NCBI GenBank assembly: GCA_027314685.1
Contig: DAHVAI010000427.1
Location: forward strand, 1-23,810
Source of the DNA: Nitrososphaerota archaeon
GTDB taxonomy: Archaea > Thermoproteota > Nitrososphaeria > Nitrososphaerales > CADDZS01
Direction of reading: 5' to 3'
Length of the DNA: 23,810 nucleotides
Both the position numbers and the translations under genes were made by a program. The notes below the pieces were generated by a model. That model was not told the DNA's origin. It saw only the letters and a list, made by a program, of their open reading frames with translations, and did no database searches. This document shows, piece by piece, positions 11,242 to 20,480 of this stretch; position 1 is the stretch's first letter; every line of letters begins with the position of its first letter.

Positions 11242-11868
11242 TCACCTTATTCTGACCTTGTAGTATTCATTTGAATCTTTTTTCAACTTGAATCGTGCTT
11301 CTAAAATGCCATTGACAAACGATGTCTCAATTGATCGAGGGATCACTGGAACGTATAAAGGAATTGCAGCTGCCAGATTTTCACCACTTTTCAATCCACT
11401 TATTCTGAGCACTAGGCAGTTCTGGGTGACTTCGATCTCCAAGTCTTCTTTCCTGACGCCGAGCATAAGAGCGACCAATCTCAGTTCGTTGCGCTTTGTG
11501 TCCACCATTGTCTCGATTACTGGATCTCTATTCCGCCATTCCAGAAACCTCCTGCGAATTTCAGAATCGAAAGTTGCAATCCCGTCGCGATTTCTCCCTG
11601 ATATCCTTTCGGGAAGCATAAGAGGTAGTCTAGGATGATTGACTGACTCGAATGAGTTCTCATCGTCGAGGTCTCTCAGTATGGATTCGGCCATCGCTTT
11701 CACTTGTTGCAACTTGTTCTTGATGATATCGATGCTTTGATTTGTGCTTATGCGATTTTGATGAACCTTGTCTTCTGCTCGAAGGAAGTCCTGCATCGAC
11801 TTGAATCGTCTGTGATTCCATCTGGCTTTTCTCATACGCTTCCTCTTCTTCCACTTGATGCGCGTCAA
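11242..11868 (-). CDS. Hsp20-like protein with a basic N-terminus
   Basis: A 208-residue protein. Residues ~1-25 are strongly basic (MTRIKWKKRKRMRKARWNHR), and a helical linker (about 26-75) follows. The last ~95 residues have the alpha-crystallin/CS-like beta-sandwich pattern: PVIETMVDTKRNELRLVALM, then VRKEDLEIEV, NCLVLRISG, a proline-rich turn, and NGILEARFKLKK, which matches the Hsp20 'G-x-L' strand. It lacks a clear C-terminal I-x-I anchor, so it may not assemble into large oligomers. It is the last gene of the dnaK-dnaJ cluster, 36 bases after dnaJ, so a role with those chaperones is likely. The basic head could contact nucleic acid or ribosomes (inference). Confidence 0.75.
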   Translation of the reverse strand: MTRIKWKKRKRMRKARWNHRRFKSMQDFLRAEDKVHQNRISTNQSIDIIKNKLQQVKAMAESILRDLDDENSFESVNHPRLPLMLPERISGRNRDGIATFDSEIRRRFLEWRNRDPVIETMVDTKRNELRLVALMLGVRKEDLEIEVTQNCLVLRISGLKSGENLAAAIPLYVPVIPRSIETSFVNGILEARFKLKKDSNEYYKVRIR

Positions 11869-11904: not shown

Positions 11905-13041
11905 TCATCTCGACAGCCCGCTCTGTTTAAGTTCCCTCAGTATCTCCCTTTGCCTTTCAGTTAGCTTTGTTGGAACAACCACTTTTACCTGGACGTATTG
12001 GTCACCTTTTTTTTGTGTGTCTATACTCAGTAATCCTTTTCCCCTCAACCGCAAAATTGTTTCACTCTGAGTTCCCGGCGGTATTGTCACCTGGATTGTT
12101 TGTCCATATATCGTTGGAACTGGAATGCTTGATCCCAGCGCAGCTTCAGCGATATTGATAGAAGCCTCGCAAAGCAAATCCTGTTCCTTTCTTGTGAAAA
12201 TCTTGTGCGGCAGCTCCTTGCAGATGACGTACAGGTCTCCATGGCGCTTCCTGGAATTTTCCTCATTAGTGCCGCCTTCGCCTCTCAGCCTCAAAGTGGC
12301 TCCATCTTCAATGCCCGCTGGGATCTTTACTTCTATTCTTCTTGTTACCTCTATAGACCCAGTCCCACTGCAGGCTTTGCAAGGACTTTCCACGACCTGT
12401 CCACTACCATTGCAAGTAGGGCATGTAACGATGCGTATCAAGTGGCTAAATCCAGCGGAACTTGATTCTTGTACCTGCCCCTGACCGCCGCATCTCAGAC
12501 AAATTCTCACTTTGGATCCAGGCGCTGCTCCCGATCCTTTGCATATTTCGCATCTTTCGGTTCTTGGAACTTCGATTTCCTTTGTTACGCCGGTTGCTAT
12601 TTCTTCAAGCGTTAGCTCTAGTTCGTATCTAAGGTCCTTGCCCGCGTCGTCGTCGTGTCTTTCTCTACGGCGATGACCGTACACGTTGCTTGTACCAAAG
12701 AAGAAATCTCCGAAGAACGAGTCAAATATGCTACCACCGCCAAATCCCATATCGCGGAAGATCTCGTCAAAGTTAGCAGTCCTGAAAATGTCTTCTGATG
12801 AGTATCTGCCCTGAATTCCTTCATGGCCGAATCTGTCATATTCTGCTCGCTTTGAATCATCAGATAGCACAGCATAGGCTTCTGAAATTTCCTTGAACTT
12901 CTCCTCGGCGTCCTTGGATTTGTTCCGGTCGGGATGGTACTGCATTGCAAGCTTTCTGTAGGAGGCCTTGATCTGGTCTATCGTAGCATCCTTTGGGACG
13001 CCCAAAACCTCGTAGTAATCTCGCTTTACCGACGAGGACAT
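11905..13041 (-). CDS. dnaJ: Chaperone DnaJ (Hsp40, class A)
   Basis: A 378-residue full-length type I Hsp40. The J domain (about 8-72) carries the HPD motif at residues 36-38 (QYHPDRN), which stimulates DnaK ATP hydrolysis. A Gly/Phe-rich linker (GFGGGSIFDSFFGDFFFG) follows. Four zinc repeats are intact: CEICKGSG, CLRCGGQG, CPTCNGSG and CKACSGTG. The C-terminal substrate domain includes GDLYVICKELPHKIFTRKEQ. The ATG at 13041 lies 18 bases after the dnaK stop with a GTGATC-like element before it, so dnaK and dnaJ are one operon. It acts in the cytoplasm with DnaK. Archaeal copies are thought to derive from bacteria by transfer. Confidence 0.97.
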   Translation of the reverse strand: MSSSVKRDYYEVLGVPKDATIDQIKASYRKLAMQYHPDRNKSKDAEEKFKEISEAYAVLSDDSKRAEYDRFGHEGIQGRYSSEDIFRTANFDEIFRDMGFGGGSIFDSFFGDFFFGTSNVYGHRRRERHDDDAGKDLRYELELTLEEIATGVTKEIEVPRTERCEICKGSGAAPGSKVRICLRCGGQGQVQESSSAGFSHLIRIVTCPTCNGSGQVVESPCKACSGTGSIEVTRRIEVKIPAGIEDGATLRLRGEGGTNEENSRKRHGDLYVICKELPHKIFTRKEQDLLCEASINIAEAALGSSIPVPTIYGQTIQVTIPPGTQSETILRLRGKGLLSIDTQKKGDQYVQVKVVVPTKLTERQREILRELKQSGLSR

Positions 13042-13059: not shown

Positions 13060-14934
13060 TTAGTTACTGGATGATTTTTCACTCTCTGAGCTGACCTTGT
13101 ACTCTGCATCAACCACTTTCTTTTCGGACGCGTCGGAGCCGGAGGAGTTTGAGGTCGAGGAAGAACCAGGGTTGGGAGCGCTGGCCGCTGCTTGCTGGTA
13201 CGCTATTGTTCCGATTTCCTTTAGGACATTCGAGACATTCTCGGTCTTTTGCTTCACCGCTTCTATGTCAGTTCCGGCGATGGCATCCTTGAGTACTTTA
13301 GAGGCGTTGTCTAGTTTAGTCAAGAGGTCTTGAGGTATCTTGTCTTTGAGGTCAGCCTTTGTCTTTTCTACAGTGTAAAGTAGGCTGTCCGCGTTGTTTC
13401 GAATTTCAGCTTCTTCCTTTTTCTTTTTGTCTTGCTCGGCGTATTGCTCTGCCTCCTTGATCATTCGCTCCTTGTCCTTTTCGTTTAGCTTGGTAGAGGC
13501 AGTAATTGTAATGCTAGTCTGCTTTCCACTGGCTAGATCCTTAGCTGAGACATTCAATATGCCGTTGGCATCGATGTCAAAGGTTACTTCTATCTGTGGC
13601 ACTCCTCTAGGAGCCGGAGGTATGCCGGTGAGATTAAAGTTGCCCAAAGACACATTGTCTTGAGCCATCGCTCTTTCTCCTTGTAAGACATGGACTGTGA
13701 CAGCAGTCTGGAAATCTGCAGCGGTTGAGAAGATCTGGCTCTTCTTAGTAGGAATAGTGGTGTTCCTCTCGATCAGCTTTGTGAAGACTCCGCCAAGAGT
13801 TTCCACTCCGAGCGAGAGAGGAGTTACGTCCAAAAGTAAAATGTCAGTAACTTCGCCTGTAAGTACAGCGCCTTGGATCGCAGCCCCCGTTGCGACACAT
13901 TCCATGGGGTCAACGCCTCTCTCAGCCGTCTTCCCCATCACTTTTTCAACGAAATTTCTAATTATTGGCATCCTCGTCGGACCGCCAACGAGAATTACCT
14001 TGTCGATATGCTTTGTTTCAAGTTTGGCATCTTGAATTGCCTGCATCATGGGGTGACGGCATCTCTCAATCACAGGAGATATCAGTTCCTCGAGCTTTGC
14101 TCTGGTGAGAGTCAGGTTGAGGTTCTTTGCGCCTGAAGAATCCGATGCAATGAATGGGAGATTGATCTCAGTAGTCACCGTAGTCGACAGTTCTATCTTT
14201 GCCTTTTCTGCTGCCTCTCTTATCCTTTGCATGGCTACCTTGTCATTTTTTAGATCGATTCCTGATTGTGATTTGAATTGAGAAACTACATAATCGATCA
14301 GAATGTTGTCCATGTCGGTTCCGCCGAGCTGGGTGTCACCGCTTGTAGATTTCACTTCAAAGACACCAGAGCCAAATTCCATGATTGTTACATCCAGCGT
14401 ACCGCCGCCTAGATCGAAGACCATGATCTTCTGATCCTTGCCGCCCTTGTCTAAACCGTAGGCGAGTGAAGCAGCCGTGGGCTCGTTGATTATTCTAACA
14501 ACTTCTAAGCCTGCAATAGAACCTGCATCTTTGGTAGCTTGTCTTTGATTGTCATTGAAATACGCAGGAACGGTGATAACAGCTTTCGTTACCTTCTCTC
14601 CGAGAAATGCTTCAGTATCATTCTTTATCTTCTGGAGGATGAATGCTGAGATCTGCTGTGGCGTGTACTCCTTTCCGATAACCTTCACCTTGTAGTCGGT
14701 GCCCATCTTCCTCTTGATGGCCATGATCGTTCCCTCGGGATTCGACACAGCCTGTCTTCTAGCCGGCTCGCCCACAAGCAGTGCACCATCTTTCGAAAAC
14801 GCCACGTATGATGGAAATGCTTTCCCACCAACACTTGTCCCCTCAGCGCTCGGAATGATTGTCGGCCTACCACCCATCATTACAGCAGCTGCTGAGTTGC
14901 TAGTTCCAAGATCGATTCCAATTATTTTTGGCAA
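13060..14934 (-). CDS. dnaK: Chaperone DnaK (Hsp70)
   Basis: A 624-residue complete Hsp70. The nucleotide-binding domain shows the phosphate-1 loop ([16 protein letters not shown]), the connect/phosphate-2 region ([13 protein letters not shown]) and the adenosine motif ([17 protein letters not shown]). The linker contains [17 protein letters not shown], the substrate domain follows, and the lid ends in a Ser-rich tail with the usual VVDAEYKV. The start is TTG at 14934 with a GAGGTG Shine-Dalgarno 9 bases upstream; an ATG at 14939 is out of frame. It is divergent from hsp20, with 138 bases between the starts. The expected nucleotide exchange factor gene grpE, which usually precedes dnaK, is not here. 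It folds and refolds proteins in the cytoplasm with DnaJ. Confidence 0.97.
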
Positions 14935-14976
14935 ACATCTTCACACCTCTTCCTCTTTTGTAATGGGAGTGATATA

Positions 14977-14986
14977 TGTTAGTAAC
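14977..14986 (+). promoter_or_regulatory. TGTTAGTAAC element upstream of dnaK
   Basis: This 10-mer recurs exactly at 17095-17104 over the thermosome promoter. Here it lies about 45 bases before the dnaK start, in the dnaK-hsp20 intergenic region. It may be part of a regulator site shared by chaperone genes, but a single 10-mer match is modest evidence. Confidence 0.35.
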
Positions 14987-15026
14987 AGGAGAAGAGTAAC
15001 TGAGCAAATAAAAAATTTACGAAGCG

Positions 15027-15034
15027 AATAAATA
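15027..15034 (+). promoter_or_regulatory. TATA-like box of hsp20
   Basis: AATAAATA lies immediately before the 27-base palindrome. A second A/T-rich tract at 15007-15019 is an alternative, and read on the other strand it could serve dnaK. Confidence 0.4.
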
Positions 15035-15061
15035 GAGTAGCCTACCTAGGGTAGGCTACTC
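15035..15061 (+). promoter_or_regulatory. Perfect 12-bp palindrome before hsp20
   Basis: GAGTAGCCTACC and GGTAGGCTACTC are perfect inverted repeats separated by TAG, ending one base before the AGGTGAT Shine-Dalgarno. It sits where the transcription start is expected, so it can act as a repressor operator. If transcribed, it would form a stable hairpin next to the ribosome-binding site. Its centre ACCTAGGGT matches the ACCTNNNGT core at the thermosome promoter. Confidence 0.7.
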
Positions 15062-15072
15062 AGGTGATAACC

Positions 15073-15606
15073 ATGAGCACGAGGACAATAAGAAGGAAGA
15101 ATAGTAACACAACAGGTTCGACGACTCAACTAGCAACAAATCCACAGCAGACATCTATTGCAACTGGTTTCGACCAAATGTTCGACCAATTCAGGCGCTC
15201 GTTCGATGACTTGATGTCACCGTTCTATCCATTTACAGGAATTGCCACGGCGACTCCACTTTCACAACTCCCCATTAGATCTTCAATTGTGGATCTGGTG
15301 GATGAGGGTGACCAGTACACCATCTACGCAGAGCTTCCGGGATTCAGCAAAGATCAGGTTGATGTCAAGGTCAACAAGGACGGGCTGGTACTAAAAGCCG
15401 AACAAAAGGCCGAAACGGAAGAGAAAAACAAGAACTATCTGCACAGGGAACGATCATACTCGGCCTTTGAAAGAGTGATTGAATTCCCTGAGGAAGTGAA
15501 CCCACAGAAAGTGGACGGTACGATGAAGGACGGGATTCTCCAACTCACCATACCGAAGAAGGAGCCGAAGCCTGAAGAAAGGTTGACCAAGGTCCAGCTA
15601 AAGTGA
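15073..15606 (+). CDS. hsp20: Small heat-shock protein Hsp20
   Basis: A 177-residue small heat-shock protein that holds unfolding proteins. A Ser/Thr/Gln-rich N-terminus and an aromatic segment (FDQMFDQFRRSFDDLMSPF) are followed by a full alpha-crystallin domain (about 75-165). It contains VDLVDEGDQYTIYAELPGFS, KVNKDGLVLKAE, the YLHRERSYSAFERVIEFPEE region and the hallmark GILQLTIPKKE. The tail ends in KVQL, a likely anchor resembling I-x-I. I place the start at ATG 15073, 5 bases after AGGTGAT; a GTG at 15064 lies inside that Shine-Dalgarno and is unlikely. The gene is divergent from dnaK and preceded by the 12-bp palindrome. A hairpin and T-run follow the stop. Confidence 0.95.
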   Translation: MSTRTIRRKNSNTTGSTTQLATNPQQTSIATGFDQMFDQFRRSFDDLMSPFYPFTGIATATPLSQLPIRSSIVDLVDEGDQYTIYAELPGFSKDQVDVKVNKDGLVLKAEQKAETEEKNKNYLHRERSYSAFERVIEFPEEVNPQKVDGTMKDGILQLTIPKKEPKPEERLTKVQLK

Positions 15607-15621
15607 TCCCTCTCCTTTATG

Positions 15622-15651
15622 GGGGCTTGCTTCTGCCCCTTCCCATTTTTT
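15622..15651 (+). terminator. Hairpin and T-run after hsp20
   Basis: GGGGC and GCCCC form a 5-bp stem with an 8-base loop, followed after a short C-rich spacer by six T. This looks like a terminator between hsp20 and the regulator gene, which has its own promoter. Confidence 0.55.
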
Positions 15652-15654
15652 GAG

Positions 15655-15683
15655 CTATAATCATCGTCCTACTTTGTTAGGAC
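15655..15683 (+). promoter_or_regulatory. Promoter and palindrome of the ArsR/Phr-like regulator
   Basis: TATA-like CTATAATC (15655-15662) is followed by GTCCTA and TAGGAC as an inverted repeat (15666-15683, 6-base spacer). It lies where a repressor would block initiation. The half-site CCTA/TAGG also occurs in the hsp20 palindrome with a 7-base spacer, so autoregulation is plausible. Confidence 0.5.
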
Positions 15684-15696
15684 TCAACATGAAGAG

Positions 15697-16398
15697 ATGA
15701 TGGATAAACTGCAAGTTGAACAAGACAGTAACTCAGATGAATTCGACAACATTCTCTCAATGGTAGAGAACTCCGTCCGACGAAGTATTATAAAGCGACT
15801 GAGTCAGGAACCCAGCTATCCGCTACAACTATCAAAGGAGCTTGGATTAGGGCAACAACTCGTAGCAAAGCATCTCGATGCACTTGAAGAATCCGGCCTA
15901 GTTGAATCTTCGATGGAACCCAGTCCTACTGGACCTGATAGAAAGGAGTACCTGTTGAAGAAAAGCGTTTCTTTGACGGTGGATTTTGCTCCCAATCTTT
16001 TTTCAGCCCGTCTTATTAGCTTGAGCTCGAATTTTCAAGATCTAGATAGAACTAAACAGTCCTCTACGCTTTTGGAGAGAATTGAGAAGATTGTCCGATC
16101 GACCGAGCGGAGGAGTAAGATAGGTTCGATCGGTAAGATCATATCGGACATCGACAATCACCTTCGCGATCTCGAAGAGGAAAGAGCAGGTTTGTTGTAC
16201 ATCAGAAACCTTGCGATGAGCGAAGCAGCAAAGTTAGTAAGAGAATCGGAGCAAAGCACAGATTCTAGAAGAGTGATCTATCGTATTCTTGACTCACATT
16301 CCAAGGATGTGGGAGATATCTCCGAGTCGATCAACCTCAGGGAGGAAACTGTCCGAAGCCTCCTGAGCGAAATTGAGAAAAGCGTGAGCGGACTATAG
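15697..16398 (+). CDS. ArsR-type winged-helix regulator, Phr-like (heat shock)
   Basis: A 233-residue transcription regulator. Residues ~15-90 form a winged helix of the ArsR type: NILSMVENSVRRSIIKRLSQ, then the HTH PLQLSKELGLGQQLVAKHLD, then ALEESGLVES and a wing (GPDRKEYLLKK). This arrangement, the following VSLTVDFAPNLFSA segment and the long helical middle resemble Phr, the Pyrococcus heat-shock repressor (comparison from memory). Unlike Phr, the C-terminus adds what looks like a second HTH (DVGDISESINLREETVRSLL, about 204-223). There are no metal-binding Cys, so it is not an arsenic sensor. It sits between hsp20 and the thermosome genes, both of which carry palindromic promoter sites. 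Start ATG 15697 or 15700. Confidence 0.8.
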   Translation: MMDKLQVEQDSNSDEFDNILSMVENSVRRSIIKRLSQEPSYPLQLSKELGLGQQLVAKHLDALEESGLVESSMEPSPTGPDRKEYLLKKSVSLTVDFAPNLFSARLISLSSNFQDLDRTKQSSTLLERIEKIVRSTERRSKIGSIGKIISDIDNHLRDLEEERAGLLYIRNLAMSEAAKLVRESEQSTDSRRVIYRILDSHSKDVGDISESINLREETVRSLLSEIEKSVSGL

Positions 16399-16416
16399 AA
16401 CCTACTCCGTTTCGAG

Positions 16417-16434
16417 GATAATCCTGAGATTATC
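16417..16434 (+). terminator. Inverted repeat after the regulator gene
   Basis: GATAATC and GATTATC form a perfect 7-bp stem with loop CTGA, 18 bases past the stop. No T-run follows, so a role in termination or mRNA stability is tentative. Confidence 0.35.
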
Positions 16435-16474
16435 TACTTGCACGGCAACGACGCAACGTGCTCGACTTTGTTCC

Positions 16475-16521
16475 ATCGACGATCACGAGATTTCGACCAT
16501 TCTCAATAGATCGACGATCAC
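16475..16521. repeat. Two 12-bp direct repeats before an orphan TATA box
   Basis: ATCGACGATCAC occurs at 16475-16486 and again at 16510-16521, 35 bases apart. The second copy ends 14 bases before the TATA-like sequence at 16536. They could be activator sites. Confidence 0.5.
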
Positions 16522-16535
16522 TTTTGGCATAATAG

Positions 16536-16546
16536 AAATATAAAAG
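16536..16546 (+). promoter_or_regulatory. Strong TATA-like box without a downstream gene
   Basis: AAATATAAAAG is one of the best TATA boxes in the window, yet no plausible plus-strand protein starts within the next 500 bases. It could drive a non-coding RNA or be chance. Confidence 0.35.
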
Positions 16547-16579
16547 GGACACTCCTAAGACTTCTCTTATCAGCTGTCT

Positions 16580-16792
16580 TTACCACACGCTGCATGGAAC
16601 GGAATCGTCTTCGGGATAGTCGTCGAGACGATCTTCATTCGCCGATTCTCTGACATTTCCGCACCTTAAGCACTTGTACGAAAATTTGTCATTGGCCGCC
16701 CGAAATAGATCCGTACATGCTCCGTCCTCAGCTTGCACTTCTCGCAGTTCAGCTTTTCGACCAATGAATCTGACAATTATTGTAGGCAACAT
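16580..16792 (-). CDS. Possible small Zn-ribbon-like protein
   Basis: ATG at 16792 gives 70 residues. The C-terminal part, SYKCLRCGNVRESANEDRLD followed by DYPEDDSVPCSVW, resembles small zinc ribbons of the Y-x-C-L-x-C-G ... D-x-V-P-C-x-x-C kind. The last position is Trp immediately before the stop, where such ribbons have Cys. One more Cys (ACTDLF) lies upstream. It is either a real gene with an unusual ligand set or a decayed one. TTG starts exist further upstream, but the ATG fits better. Confidence 0.35.
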   Translation of the reverse strand: MLPTIIVRFIGRKAELREVQAEDGACTDLFRAANDKFSYKCLRCGNVRESANEDRLDDYPEDDSVPCSVW

Positions 16793-16796
16793 CGAA

Positions 16797-16966
16797 TTAC
16801 AAAGGAATATATTGATCAGCAAATCGGTTTTTGCCCTCAAAAATATCTCTTTCTTGTTTGTCGAACACCAGAAGTTTCTTCAGCTTACAATCAAGATCGC
16901 CTTCCCGTAGGACGCAAACATGTAATCTTCAAGGCCGTCCATCCGATAGCCGCATTTTTTAATTTC
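16797..16966 (-). pseudogene. Possible decayed gene fragment
   Basis: Two minus-strand frames join into protein-like sequence across a one-base shift near 16921. The upstream frame reads EIKKCGYRMDGLEDYM; the other reads CVLREGDLDCKLKKLLVFDK followed by QERDIFEGKNRFADQYIPL and a TAA. The second frame has no start codon. Family unknown. Support is composition only. Confidence 0.28.
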
Positions 16967-17081
16967 TCATGTGCTTCTGAAAGGTAGCATTACCCGCGAG
17001 CGCATGTGGAATTCCTCCATCCTTCAGTTCAGCCCTCGAGTGCGGAGAGTCCTTTCCAAGAAGCAAGATCTAAGAGAAATT

Positions 17082-17090
17082 TTTATTAAA
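17082..17090 (+). promoter_or_regulatory. TATA box of the thermosome operon
   Basis: TTTATTAAA, preceded by a purine-rich stretch (AAGAGAAA) that may be the BRE. Transcription should begin near 17110, inside the palindrome downstream. Confidence 0.6.
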
Positions 17091-17095
17091 ATGCT

Positions 17096-17114
17096 GTTAG
17101 TAACCTCCAGTTAC
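17096..17114 (+). promoter_or_regulatory. Phr-like operator at the thermosome promoter
   Basis: GTAAC and GTTAC form an inverted repeat with a 5-base spacer (17100-17114), within the wider pattern GTTA-N3-AC-N5-GT-N-A. As I remember it, the Pyrococcus Phr site has a similar A/T-flanked AC-N5-GT core. It covers the expected start site. The core ACCTCCAGT shares ACCTNNNGT with the hsp20 palindrome. Confidence 0.5.
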
Positions 17115-17140
17115 CATCTATTTCATAGAGGTTGTGGAAT

Positions 17141-18799
17141 ATGAGTCAAACCATTCCCGCTACGACCAAATCAGGTACACCTGTTTTAATTTTGAAGGAA
17201 GGTTCGTCAGAATCCAAAGGCAGAGAATCGCAGCGCAACAACGTCTTTGCAGCCAAACTGATCTCAGAGATTGTCAAGTCTAGCTTGGGACCGAGGGGCA
17301 TGGACAAAATGCTCGTAGACTCTCTGGGAGATGTCACCATCACCAACGACGGAGCTACAATTTTGAAAGAAATTGATGTTCAACATCCCGCAGCTAAAAT
17401 GATCGTAGAGATATCAAAGACTACAGACAACGAAGTGGGCGACGGGACAACGTCAGCTGCAGTCCTTGCGGGCGCTTTAATTGAGAATGCCGAAGAGTTG
17501 ATCAATAAAGAAGTACATCCAACCATCATTGTGGACGGATACAGAAAGGCTTCAGAGAAAACTCTGGAATTCCTAGACAAGCTCGCAATCGAAGTTCCGC
17601 CAACGGACAAAAAGTGGCTACAAAAGATAGCAAAGACGAGTATGGCCTCGAAGCTGATCAGCGGCGATTCTGATCATTTGTCACAGCTTGCCGTAGACGC
17701 ACTGCTCTCGGTTGCAGAGCAAGACACTTCTGGTCAGAACAAATACAGGGTCGACCTGGATAATGTTCAGGTTGAAAAGAAAGCCGGTGGCTCAACTAGC
17801 GATACGAAACTGATCAAAGGAATAGTTCTCGACAAGGAAGTTGTTCACGCTGGAATGCCCAAGAGAATCGAAAGCGCCAAGATCGCGCTTGTCAATTCTG
17901 CTTTGGAAATCGAGAAGACTGAATTCTCTGCAGAAATCCGAATTAACGATCCAACAAAGATGAAGAAATTCTTGGACGAGGAGAACGAGATGCTAAAGTC
18001 AATGGTTGACAAGGTGGCAAACACTGGCGCAAACGTCCTGATATGCCAAAAGGGAATCGACGATATTGCGCAGCATTTCCTAGCGAAGAAGGGCATCTTA
18101 GCAGTCAGAAGAGCAAAGGAATCAGACATGACAAAGCTTTCCAAGGCAACTGGCGGACGAATAGTTACAAACCTCGATGACCTAACCGAAAAAGACATTG
18201 GCAACGCAAGTCTAGTCGAAGAGAGAAAGGTGGAGACGGACAAATGGGTGTTCGTCGAGGGCTGCAAGAATCCGAAAGCAGTCTCGCTGCTCATTCGCGG
18301 AGGTTCGCAAAGAGTCGTAGATGAAGCAGATCGAAGCATGCATGATGCGCTGATGGTTGTGAAGGATGTCATCGAGCATCCTGCAACCGTTGTCGGCGGC
18401 GGGTCCACAGAAGCTGAGCTTGCTTACAAACTGAGAGACTGGGCAAATTCGCTTTCAGGAAGAGAACAGCTAGCCGTTCAAAAATTCGCAGACGCGTTGG
18501 AATCGATACCACTGACACTCGCTATCAACTCGGGAATGGATCCAATTGATACTCAAGTGGAATTACGTGCCAAACATGGTCAGGGCAAGAAATGGTACGG
18601 CGTTAACTGCATGCAGAGCAAATGTAGCGACATGGAAGCAGAAGAGGTGTACGAGCCAGAATCGGTAAAAGAACAGATAATCAAAGCTTCTACCGAAGCG
18701 GCAAGCATGATCCTTAGAATCGATGACGTCATAGCATCAGGAAAGACAAAGGCACCTCCAACTCCGCCTAGTGGAGGTGGCGGGGAAGGGATGTATTAA
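17141..18799 (+). CDS. thsA: Thermosome (group II chaperonin) subunit, copy 1
   Basis: A 552-residue subunit of the archaeal cytosolic chaperonin, which encloses and folds proteins in an ATP-driven double ring with a built-in lid. Equatorial ATP-site motifs are present: LGPRGMDKMLVDSLGDVTIT with NDGAT, and VGDGTTSAAVLAG, whose Asp is the catalytic residue. The hinge, the apical domain (RVDLDNVQVEKKAGGSTSDT) and the second equatorial half (VVGGGSTEAELAYKLRDWAN; SGMDPIDTQVELRAKHGQG) are complete. The tail is PPTPPSGGGGEGMY instead of the usual repeated GGM. Start at ATG 17141 (MSQTIPA) with AGAGGT 8 bases upstream; this matches the second copy, so the TTG at 17132 is rejected. Promoter and operator lie just upstream. 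Confidence 0.96.
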   Translation: MSQTIPATTKSGTPVLILKEGSSESKGRESQRNNVFAAKLISEIVKSSLGPRGMDKMLVDSLGDVTITNDGATILKEIDVQHPAAKMIVEISKTTDNEVGDGTTSAAVLAGALIENAEELINKEVHPTIIVDGYRKASEKTLEFLDKLAIEVPPTDKKWLQKIAKTSMASKLISGDSDHLSQLAVDALLSVAEQDTSGQNKYRVDLDNVQVEKKAGGSTSDTKLIKGIVLDKEVVHAGMPKRIESAKIALVNSALEIEKTEFSAEIRINDPTKMKKFLDEENEMLKSMVDKVANTGANVLICQKGIDDIAQHFLAKKGILAVRRAKESDMTKLSKATGGRIVTNLDDLTEKDIGNASLVEERKVETDKWVFVEGCKNPKAVSLLIRGGSQRVVDEADRSMHDALMVVKDVIEHPATVVGGGSTEAELAYKLRDWANSLSGREQLAVQKFADALESIPLTLAINSGMDPIDTQVELRAKHGQGKKWYGVNCMQSKCSDMEAEEVYEPESVKEQIIKASTEAASMILRIDDVIASGKTKAPPTPPSGGGGEGMY

Positions 18800-18818: not shown

Positions 18819-20480
18819 ATGAGTCAAGTAATTCCAGCAGCAACTGAAGGAGGACAGCATGTCCTACTCCTGAAGGAAGGATCATCTGAAAGCAGAGGAA
18901 GACAAGCTCAGACCAACAACATCTATGCGGCGAAACTGATCTCGGAGATAGTAAAGACAAGTCTGGGTCCTAGAGGAATGGACAAGATGCTCGTTGATAC
19001 TCTGGGAGATGTAACCATAACAAACGATGGAGCAACAATGCTCAAAGAGATCGACGTCCAGCATCCTGCTGCAAAAATGCTCGTCGAGATCTCAAAGACA
19101 ACGGACAACGAGGTTGGTGACGGCACGACATCAGCTGTAGTACTCGCGGGATCTCTTCTGTCCAATGCAGAAGAATTGATTAAGGAAAATGTCCACCCTA
19201 CCATTGTAGTAGACGGCTACAGAAAGGCTTCGAGTAAGACCCTCAAGGCGCTCGAAAAGATTGCGATAAAGGTCCCACCCGAAGACAGGAAGTGGCTAAT
19301 CAAGATCGCAAAAACCAGCATGGCTTCCAAACTCATCAGCAAAGACTCGGATCAGCTTTCCCAGCTTGCAGTGGACGCACTTTTGTCGGTCGCAGAGAAG
19401 GTCGGTGACGACTACAGGCTGGACATCGACGATGTCAAGGTTGAGAAGAAGACTGGTGCGGGGATTGTGCAGACCCAGTTGATCAAAGGAGTAGGACTGG
19501 ACAAAGAAGTCGTCCACGCTGGAATGCCGAAAAAAATCGAGAATGCGAAGATCGCTCTGATCAACTCGCCCTTGGAAATCGAAAAGACAGAATTCGATGC
19601 AAAGATAAACATCAGCGACCCCTCGCAGATCAAGCAGTTTCTGGACGAAGAGAATTCGATGCTAAAAGGCATGGTTGAAAAGATAACCAGCACAGGCGCA
19701 AATGTCCTGATCTGCCAGAAGGGAATTGACGACATAGCTCAGCATTACCTTGCCAAGAACAATATTCTGGCGGTAAGGCGAGCCAAGGAGTCGGACATGA
19801 CCAAATTGGCAAAGGCAACAGGTGGAAGAATTGTGACCAATCTCGACGACCTGACAGAGAAAGACCTAGGTTCCGCGAAGCTCGTCGAAGAAAGAAAAGT
19901 TGAGGAAGACAAATGGGTGTTCGTCGAGGGCTGCAAGAATCCCAAGGCGACTACCATTCTCGTACGTGGTGCGACACAAAGAGTGACGGACGAAGCCGAA
20001 AGAAGCATGCACGACGCACTGATGGTCGTTAAGGATGTGATTGAACATCCTTCGATTGTAGTGGGCGGTGGAGCTGTTGAGGCAGAGCTTTCACAGCAGC
20101 TAAGAGACTATGCTAACTCGCTATCCGGCAGAGAGCAGCTGGCAGTGCAGAGGTACGCCGACGCGTTGGAGACAATTCCGCTGACACTTGCCACAAACTC
20201 CGGAATGGATCCAATAGACACTCAGGTAGAACTTAGAGCAAAGCATGGCCAGGGAAAGATATGGTACGGCGTAAATTGTCTAGCGGGCAAGTGCAGCGAC
20301 ATGGAGTCACAAGAAGTCTACGAGCCACTTGCAGTCAAGGAGCAGATAATCAAATCTGCTACTGAGGCAGTCAACATGATACTGAGAATTGACGACATCA
20401 TAGCCTCTGGCAAGAGCAAACCGCCACCGACGCCACCAGGAGGAGGCCCTGGCGGAATGAGCGGCGGAGACCTAGACTAA
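18819..20480 (+). CDS. thsB: Thermosome (group II chaperonin) subunit, copy 2
   Basis: A 553-residue paralog of the preceding gene, very similar along its length (MSQVIPAATEGGQHVLLLKE against MSQTIPATTKSGTPVLILKE). It has the same ATP-site motifs (NDGATMLKEIDVQHPAAKML; VGDGTTSAVVLAG). The tail ends GGMSGGDLD, longer and acidic. The stop of copy 1 overlaps the AAGGAGGT Shine-Dalgarno of this gene, so they are co-transcribed. The ATG at 18819 aligns with the start of copy 1. GTG 18807 and TTG 18810 lie in frame closer to the Shine-Dalgarno and cannot be excluded. The two products probably form mixed rings. A tandem duplication is evident; a 35-base stretch is identical between the copies. Confidence 0.95.
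   Translation: MSQVIPAATEGGQHVLLLKEGSSESRGRQAQTNNIYAAKLISEIVKTSLGPRGMDKMLVDTLGDVTITNDGATMLKEIDVQHPAAKMLVEISKTTDNEVGDGTTSAVVLAGSLLSNAEELIKENVHPTIVVDGYRKASSKTLKALEKIAIKVPPEDRKWLIKIAKTSMASKLISKDSDQLSQLAVDALLSVAEKVGDDYRLDIDDVKVEKKTGAGIVQTQLIKGVGLDKEVVHAGMPKKIENAKIALINSPLEIEKTEFDAKINISDPSQIKQFLDEENSMLKGMVEKITSTGANVLICQKGIDDIAQHYLAKNNILAVRRAKESDMTKLAKATGGRIVTNLDDLTEKDLGSAKLVEERKVEEDKWVFVEGCKNPKATTILVRGATQRVTDEAERSMHDALMVVKDVIEHPSIVVGGGAVEAELSQQLRDYANSLSGREQLAVQRYADALETIPLTLATNSGMDPIDTQVELRAKHGQGKIWYGVNCLAGKCSDMESQEVYEPLAVKEQIIKSATEAVNMILRIDDIIASGKSKPPPTPPGGGPGGMSGGDLD

Follow-up and report, generated by a model that had tools for sequence, protein, structure and literature searches.

A stretch of 23,810 nucleotides from a Nitrososphaerota archaeon (contig DAHVAI010000427.1; hereafter the window) carries a chaperone island, in which dnaK, dnaJ and a second Hsp20-like gene, HSP20b, on the minus strand (14934 to 11242) adjoin plus-strand genes for hsp20, an ArsR/Phr-like winged-helix regulator (REG1) and two thermosome subunits. 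The question raised by this locus is how many regulators act on these genes. A preliminary description of the DNA had proposed a possibly self-contained heat-shock regulon in a lineage outside the Euryarchaeota, with one Phr-like regulator controlling hsp20, the chaperonins and itself. The lineage is indeed outside the Euryarchaeota. The window probably holds, however, genes controlled by two paralogous heat-shock regulators of the Phr/HSR1 kind, with hsp20 under REG1 and the thermosome and dnaK under REG2, since two types of site accompany two different regulators in relatives. REG2 was not seen in the window, and the regulon is not self-contained if REG2 is encoded elsewhere in the genome.

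According to the proposed mechanism, a REG1 dimer would bind a 23-base-pair (bp) site of two 9-bp half-sites set 5 bp apart (GTAGCCTAC-N5-GTAGGCTAC; type 1) directly after the hsp20 TATA box, and would thereby block recruitment of RNA polymerase and repress hsp20. The REG1 gene would be repressed as well, perhaps via read-through. The thermosome and dnaK-dnaJ-hsp20b operons display this frame (9-5-9) too, but their half-sites differ (GTTASTNAC; type 2), and they would most likely be repressed by REG2. In relatives the REG2 gene neighbours thermosome and HSP20b genes, and it is presumed to be present in the genome of the window's organism. Heat would release both repressors. REG1 and REG2 are called repressors because a protein at these sites would block the polymerase, as described for Phr.

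Predicted operators in the window

The sites and promoter elements under discussion are the following.

15027..15035, plus strand: TATA-like box of hsp20, AATAAATAG, abutting the predicted operator and placed by analogy with relatives L001 and G254
15035-15061, plus strand: inverted repeat GAGTAGCCTACC-TAG-GGTAGGCTACTC in the hsp20 promoter, with perfect 12-bp arms
15037..15059, plus strand: predicted type-1 operator of hsp20, GTAGCCTAC-CTAGG-GTAGGCTAC, its inverted repeat extending to 15035-15061
17080-17091, plus strand: TATA-like TTTTTATTAAAA of the thermosome operon, just upstream of the type-2 site
17096..17118, plus strand: predicted type-2 operator of the thermosome operon, GTTAGTAAC-CTCCA-GTTACCATC, one mismatch to the pattern
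14978..15000, minus strand: predicted type-2 operator of the dnaK operon, GTTACTCTT-CTCCT-GTTACTAAC, one mismatch, with a TATA-like box 4 bp upstream
15666..15683, plus strand: GTCCTA-N6-TAGGAC, a third, even-centred palindrome ahead of REG1

The perfect 12-bp palindrome already reported for hsp20 is far from chance, as a repeat of this kind arose in 0/300 dinucleotide shuffles of the hsp20 leader. There is a single instance of the 23-bp form GTANNCTACN5GTAGNNTAC in the window, against 0.02 expected at up to two mismatches. Matching sites are found at the hsp20 promoters of L001 and G254 (here and below, L and G numbers denote loci and genomes), preceded by TATATATA at 2-3 bp, and in distant relatives as GTATACTACN5GTAGTATAC or variants.

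At the thermosome promoter, the GTAAC-CTCCA-GTTAC palindrome of the preliminary description is present (17100-17114), but when the last 100 bp are shuffled, 69% of the shuffles contain a 5-bp arm pair; as an operator in itself it is at chance level and is superseded by the 23-bp site at 17096-17118. The corresponding site at the dnaK promoter was missing from that description; the dnaK promoter of L001 also contains the half-site GTTAGTAAC. Together, the thermosome and dnaK sites are the only two places in the window with one mismatch to the type-2 pattern, 0.23 matches being expected at up to three mismatches. Both the hsp20 and the thermosome site lie just downstream of a TATA-like box, as had been noted. 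The shared motif GTWRN3ACCTN3GT is matched at exactly two positions of the window (15037 and 17096; 0.06 expected), though it was picked after seeing the data, and it proves to be a fragment of the frame common to the two promoters. This frame, which the dnaK promoter shares, consists of two 9-bp half-sites that start with GT, mostly end with AC and stand 5 bp apart.

The regulator's own palindrome, GTCCTA-N6-TAGGAC, fared less well. It is present, but a 6-bp arm pair occurs in 14% of shuffles, and the corresponding intervals of L001 and G254 were not seen to contain it, so it is probably not an operator. For the same reasons, a single operator shared by hsp20, the thermosome and the regulator was rejected. 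One shared by hsp20 and the thermosome was judged less likely on account of the two site types and two regulators.

The position of the TATA-like box was scored crudely for 44 chosen sites of both types, with 20 further genomes described below and the L139-L148 group excluded. The box lies 0-6 bp upstream in 26 sites, 11-19 bp in 15, and at least 24 bp in 3.

The type-1 site in relatives

Examination of relatives indicates that the hsp20 and thermosome sites are both conserved. The type-1 site takes the form GTATACTAC-N5-GTAGTATAC at promoters of clusters that hold REG1 and chaperones, and TACTAC-N5-GTAGTA was recognized by eye as common to the promoters of L002, L015, L016 and L038. In the first 8 genomes searched, exact TACTACN5GTAGTA gave 7 sites, one each in 7 genomes and all at promoters of clusters of a regulator homologue (REG) with chaperones, ahead of hsp20 (G002, G007, G008), of REG (G004, G005, G006) or, in G003, of the thermosome gene that follows REG. 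G001, the genome of L001, has a variant instead. Among 256 Bathyarchaeia genomes, 13 contain the exact pattern (13 sites). REG at E <= 1e-30 accompanies the pattern in seven of them, and 7/7 of these sites head a unit of REG, hsp20-REG or REG-grpE-dnaK; the G594 contig stops behind REG, so that no chaperone is visible there. The other six Bathyarchaeia sites belong to genomes without REG at 1e-30, and none lies within 1.5 kb of the queried chaperones.

A draw of 400 Nitrososphaeria genomes contains the exact pattern in 44 genomes at about 53 places. Thirty of these places were inspected, and five are hsp20-REG or hsp20-dnaK-REG promoters (G007, G008, G221, G254, G349). When all draws are combined, every exact site in a genome with a REG1 cluster is at the promoter of that cluster (13/13). 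A regulator linked to hsp20, with a site at the hsp20 promoter, is a mark of Phr/HSR1-type control, and this combination is seen in the window, L001, L002, G254, G221, G349 and others. As for autoregulation of REG1, the type-1 site heads REG1-containing clusters in relatives, and the window has no conserved site at REG1's own promoter.

The 9-5-9 geometry was examined in 39 promoter regions of chaperone-linked loci; near copies (L121, L122) and loci lacking a usable promoter (L132, L134, L136, L155) had been left out beforehand. Eight or nine of the 9 possible pairs are complementary in 24/39 regions. Every even spacer yields at most two such regions, and spacers 3 and 7, which share the same centre, yield 17 each. 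Regions that fail include the L151 REG promoter, L119 (exact core, outer letters unpaired) and several Nitrososphaeria hsp20 promoters at 7/9. As a control, 32 of the 41 unlinked loci were used, short, copied or cut ones being left out, and 0/32 upstream regions of these unlinked REG homologues reach 8 of 9 pairs. Of 37 upstream regions initially counted as unlinked, two reach 8/9, and both belong to the hsp20-linked set L003, L008, L032, L039 and L041.

By eye, the REG-thermosome interval of L139 contains three half-sites with a 14-bp period, GTATACAAC-N5-GTTTACAAC-N5-GTGGTATAC, and the arrangement is seen in members of the Bathyarchaeia group L139-L148. Such triple half-sites suggest cooperative binding of more than one dimer.

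The type-2 site and REG2

A second paralogue, REG2, 25-34% identical, is found beside a thermosome gene in 8/9 genomes of the window's family. G001 has both REG1 and REG2, and in G254 REG1 alone was found at 1e-15. REG2 loci form a long separate branch with support 100 in a quick tree (71 of 119 rows). Upstream of the thermosome, family REG2 loci carry GTTAGTGTC-N5-GTTAGTATC or a close variant.

Genomes were scanned for GTTASTNWCN5GTTASTAWC with up to one mismatch, and the reversed pattern served as control. The pattern was built with the family's thermosome sites, whereas the HSP20b, grpE, CDC48 and REG2 sites were not used. The nine family genomes have 19 distinct type-2 sites, of which 18 precede a thermosome or HSP20b gene and one falls within an open reading frame (ORF); the reversed control gave 2. 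Twenty further REG2-bearing genomes (17 from the Nitrososphaeria draw, 3 Bathyarchaeia) have 27 distinct sites, with 3 for the reversed control. Of these 27, 24 lie upstream of a thermosome, HSP20b, grpE-dnaK, CDC48 or REG2 gene, including two (L279, L291) where the stretch is cut and the gene was assigned by its N-terminal resemblance, and three have no assignment (L272, L282, L289). In 5 of the 20 no type-2 site was found at up to one mismatch. In total, type-2 sites occupy 46 places in 29 relatives, 42 of them upstream of thermosome, hsp20, grpE-dnaK, CDC48 or REG2 genes. REG2 may be autoregulated, type-2 sites preceding REG2 itself in some genomes.

Several further observations concern these loci. 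The L282 site (in G612) coincides with the beginning of an ORF that contains HEYLH and, judged by eye, possibly encodes a metallopeptidase. In some of the L114-L118 thermosome promoters, a second inverted element, seen by eye, flanks the TATA box (e.g., GCCGATAATTTTATATAATTTTCGGC in L116) and is unexplained by the operators described here.

REG1 and its family

REG1 comprises an N-terminal winged helix-turn-helix (wHTH), a long helix and a C-terminal helical region. It matches the ArsR-type model HTH_5 of Pfam (3.3e-10), and its best sequence match in the PDB is the Phr of Pyrococcus furiosus (2p4w; 3.8e-19). The best NCBIfam model is likewise Phr (NF053602), followed by SurR. An AlphaFold2 model of REG1 built from 71 sequences (mean predicted local distance difference test score 85.7) also has 2p4w as its best fold match (E 5.8e-12), which is partial, with a template modelling (TM) score of 0.47-0.55 and a root-mean-square deviation of 6.9-7.8 Å. 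The model thus points to a Phr fold, a wHTH plus a C-terminal helical part, in which the domain arrangement may differ given the deviation. The Phr-like winged-helix regulator beside chaperone genes that had been described is in this way borne out. Identification as Phr proper was rejected on score (67.5 bits against a curated cut-off of 320), and this cut-off was exceeded in 0/9 genomes.

A scan of genome contigs for REG homologues returned 55 loci, mostly labelled Nitrososphaerota/Thaumarchaeota, Bathyarchaeota or archaeon, and one Thermoplasmata. With a broadened set of Hsp20 queries, a chaperone gene lies within 2 kb of the homologue in 14/55; L003, L008, L032, L039, L041 and L055 were recognized as linked through the added queries. 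In L055, the Thermoplasmata metagenome-assembled genome (MAG), an Hsp20b-like gene immediately precedes a REG2-like gene. At 1e-30, the regulator family had no match in 343 genomes of the 400-genome Nitrososphaeria draw. The homologues returned by a search from one small genome bear the names of Thaumarchaeota and Nitrososphaerales MAGs, and Tara records exist for some of them.

A third regulator clade (L009, L029, L030, L033-L035, L042, L043, L049) lies away from the queried chaperones and has GTATACAAC-N5-GTCGATAAC or variants upstream. This site stands at a fixed 14 bp before the REG match in 8/9 loci, several of them near copies; it has the 9-5-9 frame and may serve autoregulation.

Alternative explanations

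A number of observations weigh against control by two regulators as proposed here. The type-1 loci not beside chaperones make up 25 of the 30 inspected in Nitrososphaeria, and include genomes with unlinked REG homologues (G200, G205, G309, G388) or REG2 only (G265, G358). The 13 sites at REG1 clusters include near copies (G004, G005, G455 and G453; G007 and G008). A good inverted repeat was not seen in L125-L127 and is imperfect in L131, 6/10 regions of the thermosome group L139-L148 fall under 8 of 9 pairs, and the best repeat has another register in L130, L133, L139, L141 and L144. The type-2 pattern is partly defined by the family's own thermosome sites, and both kinds of half-site have GT...AC and the N5 spacer in common, which makes cross-binding possible. 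As for the proteins, the weak match to Phr lacks specificity (at E <= 1e-5 this model picks up 7/14 control genomes, including bacteria), and L112, L141 and L046 score higher with SurR than with Phr. Lastly, the G254 thermosome site (L213), one of the three without a near upstream box, is the only one of the 44 chosen sites with a TATA-like box downstream, an arrangement that could reflect activation or another promoter.

Control of all three promoters by REG1 alone, tolerating both half-sites of the common 9-5-9 frame, is unlikely. It would account for the shared frame GTn5AC-n5-GT, part of which the motif of the preliminary description had caught, and for the place of the gene between hsp20 and thermosome in the window and L001. 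G254 would also fit, with type-2 sites and REG1 alone found at 1e-15, but the contig has 28 bp left ahead of the HSP20b site, on the flank that holds REG2 in five relatives, so that the absence of REG2 is unproven there. In addition, REG2 adjoins a thermosome gene with a type-2 site in 8/9 family genomes, and type-2 sites occur in REG2-bearing genomes without a second match of the REG1 kind at 1e-30. Slightly less likely still is a role of the regulators as activators or as sensors of another signal (redox, metal), with chaperones as general stress output. The resemblance of the family to the redox regulator SurR, above Phr for some members, and the G254 thermosome site upstream of its TATA-like box would agree with this; however, 41/44 chosen sites follow a TATA-like box within 19 bp, which fits repression, and the targets are classical heat-shock genes.

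It is very unlikely that the inverted repeat at hsp20 works as a hairpin in the mRNA (an RNA thermometer or leader stabilizer) rather than as a DNA operator. The 12-bp hairpin would be stable (-24.7 kcal/mol, z -5.3; no shuffle was equally stable), but it ends before the GGTGAT Shine-Dalgarno-like stretch, which is therefore not hidden. The spacing from TATA box to transcription start is established for archaeal promoters, and as the box abuts the repeat, transcription is expected to start inside or just after it. Furthermore, the letters TACTAC/GTAGTA recur beyond what pairing alone would require, and type-2 sites of direct-repeat form give no such hairpin.

Beyond the two-regulator reading of the window, a broader scenario is tentatively favoured. 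Nitrososphaeria and Bathyarchaeia would possess an ancient master regulon of the HSR1 type under REG2, comprising the thermosome, the Hsp70 system, Hsp20, CDC48 and its own gene behind one 23-bp 9-5-9 operator. A duplicated REG1 with a diverged half-site would have taken over a local hsp20 or hsp70 operon, and the window would hold both circuits interlocked in one chaperone island.

The chaperone island

The genes of the island and an element between two of them are as follows.

13060..14934, minus strand: dnaK (Hsp70; Pfam/NCBIfam), first gene of a probable dnaK-dnaJ-hsp20b operon, judged by spacing and strand
11905..13041, minus strand: dnaJ (Pfam/NCBIfam)
11242..11868, minus strand: HSP20b, a second, divergent Hsp20-like protein (NCBIfam Hsp20 6.2e-13, 48.7 bits, under the cut-off of 140)
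15074..15606, plus strand: hsp20, small heat shock protein (Pfam HSP20 9.4e-24, scored on the ORF from 15064)
15621..15640, plus strand: stem-loop resembling a terminator, followed by a T tail, in the hsp20-REG1 interval; L001 shows, by eye, a GC stem and T run
15697..16398, plus strand: REG1, ArsR/Phr-like winged-helix regulator, 233 aa (Pfam, NCBIfam and PDB matches)
17141..18799, plus strand: thermosome subunit 1 (Pfam/NCBIfam)
18822..20480, plus strand: thermosome subunit 2 (Pfam/NCBIfam), 22 bp downstream of subunit 1, its start chosen within the listed ORF

The two thermosome genes are probably cotranscribed. HSP20b matches the Pfam HSP20 model with an E-value of just 0.088, and its homologues in relatives are preceded by type-2 sites. 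Terminator-like stem-loops number 3 in the region, with 1.5 expected in shuffles. About 700 bp (16399-17095) separate REG1 from the thermosome promoter and contain a minus-strand ORF (16580-16840) with a CLRC motif and no Pfam match. A tRNA search of the window found none.

A protein 95% identical to REG1 (P0001) is encoded on JGI contigs. Among the homologues that bear an organism name, the nearest comes from a Nitrososphaerales MAG (84%). The locus closest to that of the window is L001, from an archaeal MAG, with the gene order of the window. G001 has two dnaK-dnaJ clusters (L205 and L211), one window-like, beside hsp20-REG1, and one behind grpE. The organism of the window may likewise have two Hsp70 systems.

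Comparison with known systems

Two archaeal regulators of this kind have been described. Phr is reported to block polymerase when bound at its site, TTTA/TGGTAA/AAAA, which lies over the start site (PMC9133787). HSR1 of Archaeoglobus fulgidus is given the operator CTAAC-N5-GTTAG (PMC9133787), with hsp20, CDC48 and itself as reported targets (PMC9133787; PMC5852551). Both were placed in arCOG01684 and put forward as ancestral regulators that target hsp20 and CDC48 (PMC5852551), and their regulons are said to lack thermosome genes (PMC10653856). For Crenarchaeota, no thermal-responsive regulator is stated to be known (PMC10746257). A literature search found no description of a heat-shock regulator or operator for Nitrososphaeria or Bathyarchaeia. 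These two classes are related to, but not identical with, Crenarchaeota, and the present searches covered lineages other than Crenarchaeota.

REG1 resembles Phr in its ArsR-type wHTH with a helical C-terminal part, 2p4w being the best match by both sequence and fold, and the Phr system shares the hsp20 target and a site next to the transcription start. It differs from Phr in its score (67.5 bits against 320), in the partial fold match (TM 0.47-0.55) and in its operator, the hsp20 site GTAGCCTACCTAGGGTAGGCTAC not corresponding to the published Phr site. SurR (P. furiosus PF0095) ranks second by sequence and fold and has a similar length and two-part layout, but its reported role is sulfur/redox control, in contrast to the chaperone context here.

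In operator and targets, REG2 resembles HSR1. Some relatives have a type-2 site that contains the HSR1 operator (e.g., GTTACTAAC-ATAAG-GTTAGTAAC in G322), whereas the window has GTAAC-N5-GTTAC. Each of the HSR1 targets (hsp20, CDC48 and the regulator itself) has its counterpart for REG2 in one relative or another. Unlike HSR1, the system also marks the thermosome and grpE-dnaK, and its lineage is Nitrososphaeria/Bathyarchaeia. It thus appears to be a variant of Phr/HSR1-type control, and not Phr itself, in lineages for which no earlier report was found. Two Phr/HSR1-like regulators would thereby gain explicit, testable predicted operators tied to the thermosome, Hsp70 and Hsp20 in Nitrososphaeria and Bathyarchaeia. 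This would support the ancestral status of such control in archaea, as proposed earlier (PMC5852551), and would provide a case of operator divergence after regulator duplication.

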